A stretch of DNA of 64,000 bases, from assembly GCA_019059635.1 (NCBI GenBank), contig JAGVRJ010000007.1, positions 1,736,001 through 1,800,000 on the forward strand. Direction: 5' to 3'. The translations under genes were made by a program, and so were the position numbers. Source of the DNA: Proales similis. Lineage: Eukaryota; Rotifera; Eurotatoria; Ploima; Proalidae. Shown one piece after another: positions 16,753 to 22,711 of this stretch (within the stretch, counting starts at the first letter, position 1; every line of letters starts with the position of its first letter). The notes under the pieces were generated by a model. The model searched no databases and was not told the origin of the DNA. It saw only the letters and a program-made list of their open reading frames with translations.

Positions 16753-17628
16753 TCATTCTCGTCGCTTTCTGTAAGTGAACTTTTCGAATATTGTCCATCC
16801 CATCACACTGACAATCACACGGCGCACAGCGCGCGGTGTGAACCCGATGAAAAATCCTCTCAGTCCGTCGTGGCTGTAAATGAGCTTCAGTGTTTGCCAG
16901 ATGCTTGTGTACTCGTTGGGCTTCAGTTGCATGCAGGTGCGCACAATGTCCGATGGCTGAGTAATGGCACATGCGACCAGCGAGCTGCCAAGTGCACTCA
17001 CAGCAAAGTGAGCCGTTGTGGGCGGCGTCTGGCCGTCGCTGATTTTCGATTTCGCAAACGTGTAAAGCGAATAGTAGACGCCGCTGTACATGACGTCTCT
17101 CAGCAGAGTGGCGTTGAGACCTTGGTACAAGCCAAGAACGCCCTCGTTCTTTATAATCGATTTAAAGGCGGGTAAGATGCGTTTGTATTTGTACAAGTCA
17201 CTCTCAAATCGAGTCTTGACGACGTTCAATGGAAATACCATGACGTCCGATACAGAGCGGGCCAGGGCACCGGTCAGAAATGATTGCAGAATCTTGTTCT
17301 CTTTCATTATGTCCCAGGTTCGACAGCGTTCGACCATTCCAAAGTAAATGGACGCGACAGGCGCAGCTCGCATCAAAGCGGGACTCAGTCCAGTCCAAAA
17401 GTGGACCAGATTTGAGAGCTTTACGTTGGAGCCTTGGCCTTTGCGGAGAGTCTGCGAGACGACCGATCCGACCGTTTTCTTCAGACGCACTTCAGACCCG
17501 TCCGGCTGGCGATAATAAATCGGCTGCTGGAGTTGAGTTTTTACAAACTCAAATGGCTGGAGTAGAAGAGCGGTGAGCGAACCGCTGATCATCCCCGCCA
17601 CTAGAGAACTACTTAAGCTTGAATCCAT
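16753..17628 (-). CDS. SLC25A38: Mitochondrial glycine transporter SLC25A38
   Basis: An intronless frame of 291 residues with the three-repeat mitochondrial carrier fold. Carrier signatures are LLQPFEFVKTQLQQP, FPLNVVKTRFESDLYKY and ITQPSDIVRTCMQLKP, each a Px[DE]xx[KR] variant. FWTGLSPALMRAAPVASIYF and LYQGLNATLLRDVMYSGVYY are typical of SLC25A38/Hem25, which imports glycine for haem synthesis. The ATG at 17628 starts right at the first carrier helix, and the length matches the family. The lack of introns contrasts with its neighbours. Confidence 0.92.
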   Translation of the reverse strand: MDSSLSSSLVAGMISGSLTALLLQPFEFVKTQLQQPIYYRQPDGSEVRLKKTVGSVVSQTLRKGQGSNVKLSNLVHFWTGLSPALMRAAPVASIYFGMVERCRTWDIMKENKILQSFLTGALARSVSDVMVFPLNVVKTRFESDLYKYKRILPAFKSIIKNEGVLGLYQGLNATLLRDVMYSGVYYSLYTFAKSKISDGQTPPTTAHFAVSALGSSLVACAITQPSDIVRTCMQLKPNEYTSIWQTLKLIYSHDGLRGFFIGFTPRAVRRVIVSVMGWTIFEKFTYRKRRE

Positions 17629-17826
17629 TTTCGAGTACTAGTGGCCTTTTTAAAGGCGTGGTGTTGGAAATGCGAGGCAAACTCGATTTCAAACGAGCCC
17701 CAGACCGCAACAAGAGGAGGAGCTCGTTGTATGCTTTTGTTGTTGATTTATTACACATTCTGACAGGAGTGGTTTTATTAGCGGGTCCAGTTTACAAGGA
17801 GTCTGTTGATTTGAAAAGCAGACCGT

Positions 17827-18087
17827 TCAGGGCTCGTCAGGCTTGAACGGAAGTGGACCGCACGGCTGTACCATGTTCTTGATGTAGTTGAACCGTAGAC
17901 GAGCTTTGCTCTCGTTCTCTGCGATCGACATGAAGTTCATTGTGTCGAAATGGCCGACCAAAGAGGCATATGTGTCCCGATGCTGATTAGTCAGCCATTC
18001 CCATTTAGTGGTCTCCGAGTGCCCTGTGCCGATATACTTTGACTGCAAATGCTCTAGTTGAGTATGAATGTTATAGCGATCGCCCAT
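17827..18087 (-). CDS. SF3B5: Splicing factor 3B subunit 5
   Basis: An intronless 86-residue protein beginning MGDRYNIHTQLEHLQSKYIG and continuing GTGHSETTKWEWLTNQHRD, FMSIAENESKARLRFNYIK and PCGPLPFKPDEP. It is near-identical in plan and length to SF3b10 of other animals, a subunit of the U2 snRNP SF3b complex that helps recognise the branch point. The start at 18087 matches the conserved N-terminus; a longer in-frame reading upstream has no similarity. Confidence 0.97.
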   Translation of the reverse strand: MGDRYNIHTQLEHLQSKYIGTGHSETTKWEWLTNQHRDTYASLVGHFDTMNFMSIAENESKARLRFNYIKNMVQPCGPLPFKPDEP

Positions 18088-18466
18088 TTTCCCTTGCTCG
18101 GTATTAACAACAGTCCGCCGCCAACTCGATGTGGAAAGGTCACAACTACCACAAGCGGTGCCAGTTATCAGATGAAAACGTGTGCGTTCACAAGCATAAA
18201 CCAGATCGGACAAAACTAACACAACAATCGCATGTCAGCTTGTGTTGGACTTCTTCTTTAAAAAAGACAACCTGCTCTGTTCAATTTCTCTTTCTCATGA
18301 GCCACAAGCCAGAAATGTTTAAATAGCGTGTTGCAATCAAGACGCTATTTAAATTAATTAATTAATTGACGATTAATTACCGACAGTAGCCGACAGACTC
18401 GGCTACTTTATTCATATAAATACGCATTTATTCGTTACTAATTTGCCAAAAATAAATTTCTTTTTG

Positions 18467-21400
18467 TTACAAATATCCACTTGACTGAAAATTATCCCAA
18501 ATGAACGTCAAATCCTTGTTCAGCGCCAGTAGCTCTTCAAAAGTTTTGTTCTCGCTCGATGGCTGCTCTTTGCTCGCCACGCACGAGCCTTGAACTGTTT
18601 TATCACCGCGTGGATCAGCTTGTTCTGACGAACAAGAAGATGAGGAAGGACCGGCGTCTGGCGTTTTCTTTAAATCTGAATCGGGCGTTTGTGCGGCCGC
18701 TGGTGTGTACAAATCTGTTTTGGTCGCTTTGGAAGATATTGAGACCGAATGCCAGGATTGCGGCTCTTTGGCGTTTGCCTCATCTCGACTGCTCTGTAAA
18801 GTTTTCTCGCCCACAGATTCGAGCAGAATTTGACTAGTCTGACACGAGCGGTCGTTAGAGAGCACTTGAACGAACGAGGCCTTTCTTGCGTTTTGCTTGC
18901 CACTTGTCGATTTGACCACCACACGAGCCATCTTAGTACTTCCCATCTTGGAGGTTCCTTGGTCATACTTGGTCGTATTGCTCGACCTTGACATTAAAGG
19001 CACTGAGTTGAAGGAATTGAGAAGAAACACAGGTGAAAACACTTGCCTTATATCGGAGTTTCTCGACTGCTCCGAGACACCGAAATGACAGCGAAGCTCA
19101 TTGGAGGTGGCAAACGCGCTTCTCTGATTTTTTTCGGGCTCGAACAGCATTATGTAGACTTTGGGTGCGAAAAGCAGGACGAGAATGACCGTGGCGCTGA
19201 AGCTCATGCTCAAGCAGAGCACCAGTGTCTTAAAGTCGCCGCCGAAATAGAGCGGCACAAACGCAGTCCATATCACACACGTAGTGTACATGCTGAACCC
19301 GATGAATTTGGCTTCGTTGAAATTCTCCGGCAGATTTCTGGTCTTTACTGCATACAAGGTGCAAAGAGCGACCAGAATCATGTTGAAGCCGAGCGGGCAA
19401 ATGACCGAATATGTGTCGTTGTCGCATTCGAGCCGAGCGACATCTCGACGCGGATGTGTAACCACAGTGCCTCCTGGCTTGTGAAAGAAACTGCCCACAA
19501 TTATGGCCAATTCGAATGCGATCAAGCAAAACGTTAGGAATATTTGCGCGCCGAGACTCATGAAGCGCGGCTTCTTGATCAGTATGCGCTTTTTGCTTCG
19601 GGCCAGAATGCGAGCGATTCGATTTGTTTTCACTACGAGCGCGCTGTACATCAGCGACAGACTCAGACCGGGCAGTATTCGAGCCATGTAGCATGTGACT
19701 ATAGACGGCCTCATCAGAAGCGGAAATGTGAGTATGTAGCTCATGTAGACACCGATTAGGACGATCAAGCTCAGCTCTCTGGTGGTCGATTTCACCACAC
19801 ATGTGTTGGCGAATCGAATGAACACAATCAGCACGAAAGTGTTCATCATTATTCCCAATATGCTCACGCACATGGCAAACAACGAGACGGGCTCGGTCCA
19901 GTTCAGAAATGTCAACGGCAGCGGGCCGCAGCCTTGTTCCAAGCGTTTGAAATCAAATCGCAACCAACAAATGTCATTCTTCTTACCAGTGAGGTTCTCG
20001 TTCGGCCAGTAGCCCAGATTGCAGTCCTGGCACGTATACTCGTCGACAATGAACGCATGGCTGGCGCACTTTTTACAATTCCAGCAGCATTTCTCGTTTC
20101 CCTTTCTCACTTGCTGAAACAGAATGCCAAGCAAACAATGCGAGAGAATGCAATCACAAGACGATCCACTTGAATTGAATACAAGTTCAAACTTACTTTT
20201 ATGGAGCCGAACGGACACGGCTCTGAGCAAACGCTTTCGTAGTTGCTCTGGTTGTTCGGAAATACAATGTCGGCATCGTTCAAGTTCAGCTTGTCAAAGT
20301 TGTTCCAGTTGCCGACTTGGCGGTAAACGTAGCTCGAGCTCGCATTCACCTGATTCCGATCTTTTTGTACATTAAGCACCACGTACCTTTACAAGGCGTG
20401 TAAATGCATTGAGGAAGAGGCAACATGTGAGCAAGGGAACTTACCTGCCCGGAGGGTCGCCGTTAGTGTCAAAATAGATCTTCTCGCCGGTGACCCCTTC
20501 GAACATCGAGGTCTTTATAAAGCCGAGCAGCATGGAACCGTTTATGTTTTTCATCGACTCACACAGGCCATAATGGCCAGAGCATAGCTAGAAAAGGAAT
20601 GGTTCAGATTGCAACTGCCATATGAACGGCATAGGAGACCTCAAGTTTACCCTTCGGTGAGCGTTGTTGAGGCCGTGAGCAATGGCGAGCATTGAGTTCA
20701 TAACGTAGCTCATCTTCGGGTCCTGCTGGTAGTTGCGAAGGCTGTCCGGATAGAACTCAACCGGCTGATCAGATCGAGAGGCGAGCGGTGTTTGAAATCG
20801 GCAAATGAACGGCTGCCTATCTTGAGCACCGTTCAAATCGATGCAGTAGGGACCAAATCGCTCGTCCGAGGTCATCAAGAGTGTAATGTTGTTTATATCA
20901 GTTTCGGTGCGACTTATGAAATAAGTGATCGTGTCCGAGGAGGACAGGGCGGCGAAAAAGTGCGGATCATGTTTGTCCTTGATCGCCTCGAGCGGTTGGC
21001 AAAATCGCAGTCTGATGCCCTGCGCGTCGTCGCCAATTGAGTCGAAATCGGACGTGTGGCGAATTTTGTGCTTTTTCAATATCGAGTTGAGCTTCACTTT
21101 GACGTGCAGACGGCTCAAATGCTCTTTGAGTCCTCGCTGCGACAAATAGTTTAGCACAAGGTCAAGAGAATGATCGTCGCCGGCGTCGAGCAGTTCGGCG
21201 TCATGGTACACACTTTTGCACTTGTTCTCTGCCTCTTGCCAACTGAGACTGGTCTCCGAGAGCCAGTAGCAGGCATTGCCAATCGCCATCAGACCAGTCG
21301 GGCAAAGTCCTAGTTGAAAAAGTCCAAATTATCTTGGGTTTGCACAAGAGCTGCTTAAATTTACTGACTTTTGCAAGGTATTCGAAACTTGCCTCTCCTG

Positions 21401-22711
21401 TGCGGCTCAATGTAACACTTGAACATTTCTTCCCAATATTCGTTGAACCAAACGTTGCGCTGGTTGCTGATCGGATTCAGATTGGTGAAGTACGAGTCGA
21501 ATTCGGTGACCTCGGGCGAATAGGCTTTGAATGAAAACGAGCCGACCGCTTGCTCGTACAAGCCGCGTGCGACGTCAATTCGATCAGACCATCCGTCACT
21601 AATTTTACCGAGTCGAGTCAGTTTAAGGCTTGAAAATGAGAAAAAATTTTTTTCGCATTCCGAAGCATACCTGCCAACAATCAAGAAGCGGCCGGTCAGA
21701 TTTAGGCGGTTTATAGCTCCCAGAAGCCCTCGAACGGTCTCGCCGTAGCAAAAGCAGACGATCACATGCGCCTTTTCCACTCCGCTGAGGCGTCTGACCA
21801 CAAGATCGAAATCTGAGTCACTAGCGTATTCGCGAATCTTTTCCAACGATGCTATGCAGACGTTCAACTCGGCTATCTCGTTTTTGAACGAGTCCATGCC
21901 GGCCTGGCCGTAGCTTCCTAAAAAGCGCCCTGAAACCTATTTGTTTCTCGACTGCCAATAAAGCGATTCGCATACCGTCCGTGTAGATGGCGAATATGTA
22001 GGTCCAGTTCATTTTGATCACAACGTCTGTGATTGCTCTGACTTGGAGATAGTCACTCGGCACGACTCGTAAAAAGGTCTGGTACATTTGCTTGTCGCTT
22101 AGATCCTTGCTGGTTGCCGAATAGCCGACTTGAGGTATGTCGAATAGTTGCAGCAGGTTCTGAACATTGATGGCCACCGAGCTGCCGCCTGGTCCGATAA
22201 CGGCCAGAATGCGATTGCGAGTTTGCTTTTCTCTTTCCAGGCTGCTGCATTTATTAGCCTGGTCAGCAGTTAATTCGGCGATTGATGAGCTCTCGTTCAG
22301 TCTCGACATTGAGCTATCTCGCCCTATTAAATTTGTATCGCTGGTGATCGTGTCCTTGATGAAATCGATTGTCTCCTCGAGCGCGATAGACGAGTCCCAG
22401 CATTCGTCGCGGATCTCGAGGCCGATGCGAACGCCTGGCAGGAACGACTCGTCTTTATTTATCTTGTCGAGCATATAGAGCAGCGCCTCGACTCGCTGCA
22501 CTCCGTACTGATCGCGAATGACGCCGCACTCGCGCGGACCGTTCGGCCGTTCACTGTACGATGGCTGTTCGTGCACTGGCAATAGAGCGCCGATCATAAG
22601 ATCGCCAGGCACCACAAGTTTTTTTCTCGCCTTCAGCTCTTGGCCGGTCACAAGGATCAAGTGCAAGCAAGATAGGCAAAGTGAAACTAAAAAAACGTTG
22701 CTCTGCTTCAT
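18467..22711 (-). CDS. Metabotropic glutamate receptor with inserted C-type lectin-like domain
   Basis: Seven exons (21976-22711, 21671-21929, 21369-21598, 20651-21309, 20445-20587, 20197-20386, 18467-20113) join in exact phase to about 1,287 residues. In order: a signal peptide; a Venus-flytrap domain (GPGGSSVAINVQNLLQLFD, IPQVGYSATSKDLSDK, VVPSDYLQVRAITDV, NWTYIFAIYTDG, SDGWSDR); a C-type lectin-like insert (21309 to about 20805); the rest of the flytrap lobe (MSYVMNSMLAIAHGLNNAHR, LCSGHYGLCESM, FDTNGDPPGRYVV); the cysteine-rich domain (CCWNCKKC...CQDCNLGYWPNENLTG); seven membrane helices; and a serine-rich tail of about 230 residues. The serine/threonine cluster that holds the glutamate backbone in mGluRs is retained. 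Receptors of this family couple to G proteins as dimers. The lectin insert is not a standard part of the family. Confidence 0.93.
20805..21309 (-). other. C-type lectin-like domain within the mGluR ectodomain
   Basis: This stretch lies in one exon (20651-21309) that also encodes mGluR sequence at its 3' end. It opens LCPTGLMAIGNACYW, then SWQEAENKCKS and AELLDAGDDHSLDLV, and closes PYC...DRQPFICRF. This is the pattern of a long-form C-type lectin-like fold: an N-terminal C-P-x-G...C-Y pair, S-W-x-x-A-x3-C, and a terminal P-F-I-C. Six cysteines are in the expected order. The WIGL core is not evident, and the EPN/QPD and WND calcium and sugar residues are absent, so sugar binding is doubtful and a protein-binding role more likely. 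Confidence 0.82.

Follow-up and report, generated by a model that had tools for sequence, protein, structure and literature searches.

Group I metabotropic glutamate receptors (mGluR1 and mGluR5) are built from flytrap, nine-cysteine and seven-helix domains, and these domains, together with the residues of the glutamate site, are also found in the rotifer receptor described here. Among other receptors with which it may be compared, the calcium-sensing receptor (CaSR) has a disordered loop lying between two cysteines, the lipopolysaccharide receptor of Dictyostelium belongs to the class C type, and Latrophilin-1 falls into another receptor class than the mGluRs. For CaSR, residues about 361-391 were not modelled (excerpt of PMC4977154). 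Latrophilin-1 is likewise a seven-transmembrane receptor with a lectin-like extracellular domain, but that domain is of the rhamnose-binding-lectin type, has an unrelated fold and lies outside any flytrap (excerpt of PMC2430599). The proteins ELFN1 and ELFN2 contact group III mGluRs from outside, which provides a precedent for extracellular anchoring (excerpt of PMC12333015). Secreted rotifer lectins have been surveyed, and since the proteins had to lack transmembrane regions, that survey could not have found the gene reported here (PMC8878817). No report of a lectin domain in an mGluR was found in the open-licence PubMed Central literature, in agreement with a preliminary description of this locus which had taken the fusion to be new; the word 'lectin' does not occur in the main text of PMC6307864, and no dedicated mGluR study of the rotifer nervous system was found in the open-licence PubMed Central literature. 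Each part of the receptor is known, and it is the combination and the insertion site that were not found in the open-access literature.

The receptor gene spans 18467-22711 on the minus strand of the window (the whole stretch of 64,000 nucleotides that was analysed) from the rotifer Proales similis (Rotifera, Monogononta, Ploima, Proalidae), whose genome, an assembly of 15 contigs with 32.7 Mb in total, was searched. The deposited P. similis protein of 1238 aa (P0001) maps letter for letter onto nine exons of the window, and its nr entry, 'G protein-coupled receptor [Proales similis]', was 100% identical across the query region 360-720 in the protein search; the annotations deposited for the insert-bearing proteins read GPCR, mGluR1 or unnamed product. 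According to the exact map of P0001 and the Pfam matches, and all on the minus strand, exon 1 (21976-22711) encodes a signal-peptide-like start and the first flytrap part with an ANF_receptor match, exon 2 (21671-21917) continues the flytrap, exon 3 (21369-21598) carries it up to the FKC...IPC loop with a phase-1 end, exon 4 (20651-21309) holds the C-type-lectin-derived insert, a linker and the flytrap segment with the K409 equivalent, exon 5 (20445-20587) encodes the end part of the flytrap, exon 6 (20197-20386) the flytrap end and the start of the nine-cysteine domain, exon 7 (19987-20113) the nine-cysteine domain (NCD3G), exon 8 (19068-19932) the seven-helix domain (7tm_3) and the start of the tail, and exon 9 (18467-18986) the intracellular tail with the end QSSGYL and the stop. 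The junction of exons 8 and 9 has unusual splice sites in this map (donor GTCGAG). The boundaries of the key exon had been given exactly in the preliminary description, and the strand, which it had left ungiven, is minus, the plus-strand reading having stops. Its chain of seven exons is also open from ATG to stop on the minus strand (1297 aa) but was not matched in number by the nine exons of the deposited protein: the two models use different acceptors for exons 2 and 3, the last exon of the chain holds two further introns, and exon 4 is identical in both. Two other open frames on the minus strand of the window were recognised by eye, a neighbouring one at 17827-18234 which is SF3B5-like (splicing factor) and one at 16753-17637 which resembles a mitochondrial carrier protein.

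In P0001 the flytrap, nine-cysteine and 7tm_3 domains occur in one chain, all above the Pfam cut-off, and all relatives among the matches listed show the same three receptor domains. The PDB search with P0001 gave 855 bits for mGluR1, 842 for mGluR5 and 590 for mGluR2, with the other mGluRs (2/3/4/6/7/8) at 590 bits or less among the best 60 of 80 matches, a ranking by score and not by tree. Of 12 positions which we take, in mGluR1 numbering, to form the glutamate site, 11 carry the same residue in P. similis as in lizard mGluR5, and the sole differing position, E292, is tyrosine in Proales, whereas B. calyciflorus keeps E; the earlier expectation that the glutamate site is spared was thus borne out at the positions checked. 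All three rotifer proteins examined (P0001 to P0003) share the tail end QSSGYL, which is similar to the QSSSSL of lizard mGluR5. The Homer-binding motif PPxxF is present in the lizard protein and is absent from P0001-P0003 and from the annelid, scorpion and tardigrade relatives, and because of this absence the receptor is filed as group-I-like. Taken from domain content and residues, these comparisons show the predicted gene product to be a genuine metabotropic glutamate receptor of a monogonont rotifer, closest to mGluR1/mGluR5. The tails of all three rotifer receptors also have a DRSCQTS stretch in common (within 18467-18986 on the minus strand in P. similis).

Exon 4 reads on the minus strand through LCPTGLMAIGNACYW, SWQEAENKCKS and PFICRF and then into MSYVMNSMLAIAHGLNNAHR without a stop, and one exon, used identically in the deposited P0001, holds the lectin-like stretch and then mGluR sequence in frame, as had been described. 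In the phmmer alignment the flanks of the insert are 7 residues apart in mGluR1 (7dge; chain 364/372) and 188 residues apart in P0001 (query 407/596), with the mGluR1 loop cysteine paired with P0001 C407, at which the cysteines of the lectin-like frame begin. We would prefer C403 (of IPC) as the counterpart of the loop cysteine, since the long-form scheme already provides a partner for C407, and the distance then becomes 192; under either pairing the insert comes after the FKC...C loop, with QDPK following a short way beyond its end. The insert abuts the glutamate-contact segment and ends some ten residues before the QDPK lysine (codon at 20714-20716 on the minus strand, placed by alignment and counted from the exon map), which we take to be the equivalent of mGluR1 K409, a glutamate contact and lobe-1 residue. 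Since the insert precedes this lysine, it would be part of lobe 1, next to the disulfide loop FxC...C, and not of lobe 2 as had been proposed. We also take E382/R383 of T1R2 to align with the K409 position, and a placement of these residues in LB1 is consistent with lobe 1. Such a placement in LB1 is given in an excerpt of PMC3335050.

The insert itself corresponds to P0001 residues 405-576 (20795-21309 on the minus strand, from profile matches and the cysteine alignment). In the P0001 map intron 3, of phase 1, lies at its 5' edge, and the 3' edge is without an intron, the insert and its right flank with the K409 segment sharing exon 4. Exon 4 has 659 nt, so that its skipping breaks the frame, and since the insert and the K409 segment are on one exon, a normally spliced receptor carries the domain; we thus infer that normal splicing keeps the insert in the product. 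Use of the one internal acceptor, at 20820, could take out most of the insert. Overall, the alignments show about 170 predicted residues with C-type-lectin-like sequence sitting inserted in a flytrap loop of a real mGluR.

Out of 2044 candidates, 11 proteins were found, and three of these cover the insert, namely those of P. similis, B. calyciflorus and B. plicatilis, so that the same fusion, which it had been suggested to look for in relatives, is present in both Brachionus species and is not an artefact of one assembly. The B. calyciflorus protein (P0002) is 39% identical across 99% of query region 360-720, with both flanks present, and the B. plicatilis protein (P0003) has 40% over 83% of that region with the downstream flank, its model being without the N-terminal part; the remaining 8 proteins cover 29-30% of the region. 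The B. plicatilis model starts with MIFFKQ-GKCP, which reads like an intron end at the same place as intron 3 of P. similis. In a set of 129 proteins, mostly vertebrate and chosen by similarity, both anchors were found in 128, and more than 60 residues lie between them only in P0001 and P0002; the second mGluR-like gene of the P. similis genome (C15) has an ordinary short loop. The identity of P0001 and P0002 is 60.2% and 59.1% in the flytrap, 60.3% in the nine-cysteine domain and 61.0% in the helices, in comparison to 24.6% (31/126 aligned) in the insert, for which the values are 32.5% (52/160) between P0001 and P0003 and 27.7% (33/119) between P0002 and P0003. The same insert in the same place in three species is more than chance. 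A separate feature was seen in the Aedes albopictus mGluR1 entry (P0012), in which a large flytrap segment is tandemly repeated, probably through an assembly or gene-model duplication.

The preliminary description had called for a profile search of the insert, and the outcome was divided, the three-species profile and hhalign giving C-type-lectin-like matches and the Pfam lectin family PF00059 being below cut-off or absent. With the Proales insert alone, 55 PDB matches were obtained at E<=10 (best E 0.0037), all but one of them C-type-lectin-like, a label given by name or known family here and below, the single other match being a cytochrome P450. The B. plicatilis insert gave a best E of 1.7e-5 with 58 C-type-lectin-like chains among the best 60 of 84 matches, and the three-species profile gave 129 matches at E<=1 (best 6.3e-6), of which the best 60 were all C-type-lectin-like. 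By hhalign, the three-species insert matched six lectin domains encoded in the P. similis genome at 96.45% (score 60.8, 53 columns), in comparison to at most 1.8% and a score of 18.8 for 60 column shuffles, and the three inserts taken singly reached 90.1, 89.7 and 92.6%. PF00059 did not match the insert of Proales or B. calyciflorus; given alone, the B. plicatilis insert scored 19.9 bits (E 0.0013) against a cut-off of 22.6, a HAMP model reached a similar E of 0.0022 on it, and PF00059 was absent from the whole-protein Pfam scan of B. plicatilis. At the level of profiles, Proales alone gives a weak lectin-like match, and the profile of all three species a clearer one. The P. similis genome also has a cluster of C-type lectin domain exons (G000:C1:321611-330076), with 12 of the 19 PF00059 places of the genome within about 8.5 kb, and a 466-aa open frame (G000:C7:992300-993700) which consists of a C-type lectin domain, cysteine-rich parts and a hydrophobic stretch that is membrane-span-like by eye.

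Long-form C-type-lectin-like domains follow a cysteine scheme with the pairs C0-C0', C1-C4 and C2-C3. The first three cysteines of the insert are at 407/418/435 in P0001, 396/407/424 in P0002 and 9/20/37 in P0003, with a spacing of +11 and +17 throughout, and the last cysteine follows the YC cysteine at a distance of 14 in all three species. All six positions of the scheme are occupied in both Brachionus, and C2 and C3 are both replaced in Proales, where one disulfide of the lectin-like domain may have been lost as a unit. The motifs EPN, QPD, WND and WNE, which we take to be the calcium/sugar motifs of C-type lectins, are found neither in P0001 nor in the Brachionus inserts, the one EPN of P0002 sitting in its tail at position 1198; the earlier remark that calcium and sugar residues are missing therefore holds. 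As the inserts lack EPN, QPD and WND, we call the insert a C-type-lectin-derived domain and not a lectin.

Several other explanations of the insert need to be weighed. It is highly improbable, in our estimate, that the insert does not have a lectin-like fold, with only its first 55 residues resembling one and a different fold, known or new, in the rest. Most of the lectin-like signal comes from the N-terminal third and most PDB matches end near residue 57, the C-terminal half matched no Pfam family when given alone and is weak in hhalign (score 19.6, probability 8%), and the AlphaFold models are poor (pLDDT 46.7 and 52.5), with no lectin-like chain among the matches listed when the poor exon-4 model of pLDDT 46.7, the only one searched, was used in fold searches. 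Nevertheless, that same C-terminal half aligned in register with the C3-C4 end and its last cysteines at a score which none of 200 shuffles reached (maximum 14.3), PF00059 spans model positions 2-106/107 in the B. plicatilis insert, and the C3-C4 spacing is 8 in both Brachionus. It is very unlikely that the domain is a passenger of little function, left by an old exon insertion into a loop that tolerates it, although such a stretch could remain open since a frameshift would destroy the receptor. The insert identity of 25-33% versus about 60% for the P0001-P0002 flanks, the length varying from 136 to 174 residues across the three rotifers, and the loss of C2 and C3 in Proales would all suit a passenger, as would the disordered residues of CaSR (excerpt of PMC4977154) by what we take to be the same loop; however, the three species, which belong to two families, have all retained the spacing of the cysteines along with W, A and C of the lectin-like frame, and free drift would hardly be expected to leave these intact. 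A sensor of carbohydrates or microbes, in which the domain binds glycans of food cells, microbes or mates and is coupled to the receptor, is quite unlikely as well. The lectin-like profile matches would agree with it, a receptor of Dictyostelium is reported to recognise bacterial lipopolysaccharide (excerpt of PMC5969738), and in Brachionus manjavacas mates are recognised through a pheromone that is a membrane-bound C-type lectin (excerpt of PMC8878817), but EPN, QPD and WND are absent from all three inserts, and the best PDB matches include sugar binders but also domains of LOX-1 and of the NK-receptor type, so that the PDB ranking does not decide on sugar binding.

The reading we consider most likely, to which we give about an even chance, is that the insert is a constitutive protein-binding module which would anchor or tune the glutamate receptor. 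Under this reading the insert would be a calcium-independent, protein-binding C-type-lectin-like module, a protein ligand being the likelier target because the calcium motifs are absent; it would leave glutamate binding intact, project from each protomer of the dimer and link the receptor to a partner in the matrix or on another cell. Such tethering, a role like that of the outside partners which keep some vertebrate mGluRs at contact sites, would set where, and perhaps how strongly, glutamate signals. The loop before VIGP holds cysteines in P0001 and P0002, and we take this loop to make the inter-subunit disulfide in mGluR1; because its cysteines are kept, the receptor probably forms a dimer that carries two lectin-like arms. 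Alternatively, a bulky domain by the K409 segment of lobe 1 may shift flytrap closure, dimer packing or surface delivery with no outside ligand, which is unlikely: the direct joining of the insert to the glutamate-contact segment some ten residues before the K409 equivalent, and the kept cysteine-bearing loop before VIGP in both rotifers checked, would fit such an effect, but a simple spacer needs no lectin-like frame with conserved cysteines. A contact-gated receptor, in which partner binding at the insert changes glutamate affinity or dimer activation, is a tentative proposal which might apply, as the insert adjoins the glutamate-contact lysine in lobe 1 and partner binding could thus alter the glutamate response. 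If so, glutamate would be reported only, or differently, where contact exists, and monogonont rotifers would have evolved a class C GPCR that has its own adhesion input.

In general, the earlier observation of a lectin-like exon in an mGluR gene is confirmed, with corrections, and the earlier interpretation as a whole is partly supported. Since related rotifers share the lectin-like domain in the flytrap, the receptor may also have a second binding partner outside the cell. A foreign domain kept in the flytrap of one animal lineage is a natural experiment which shows which flytrap loop tolerates some 170 extra residues, and it offers a built-in way of testing whether extracellular contacts steer glutamate signalling as well as a concrete question on the rotifer nervous system.

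In comparison with the described systems, the long-form C-type-lectin-like domains of LOX-1, CLEC2D, CLEC10A and CLEC4A, which are the best PDB matches, have the CPxxxxxxGNxCYW...WxxAxxxC frame and the PFICR end in common with the rotifer insert, which differs from them in being nested in another domain, in its long middle and extra cysteines, in having no calcium motif and in the missing C2/C3 of Proales. CaSR is also of class C and has a variable disordered stretch in what we take to be the corresponding region, the disordered loop being between two cysteines in CaSR and the rotifer domain coming after the second cysteine. In mGluR1 the loop cysteine is followed by the K409 segment after 7 residues, in comparison to about 190 in the rotifer receptor. 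ELFN1/ELFN2 position group III mGluRs by a protein contact outside the cell (excerpt of PMC12333015), a role comparable to that proposed for the insert, except that ELFN1 and ELFN2 are separate partner proteins, whereas the contact module of the rotifer receptor would be built in.
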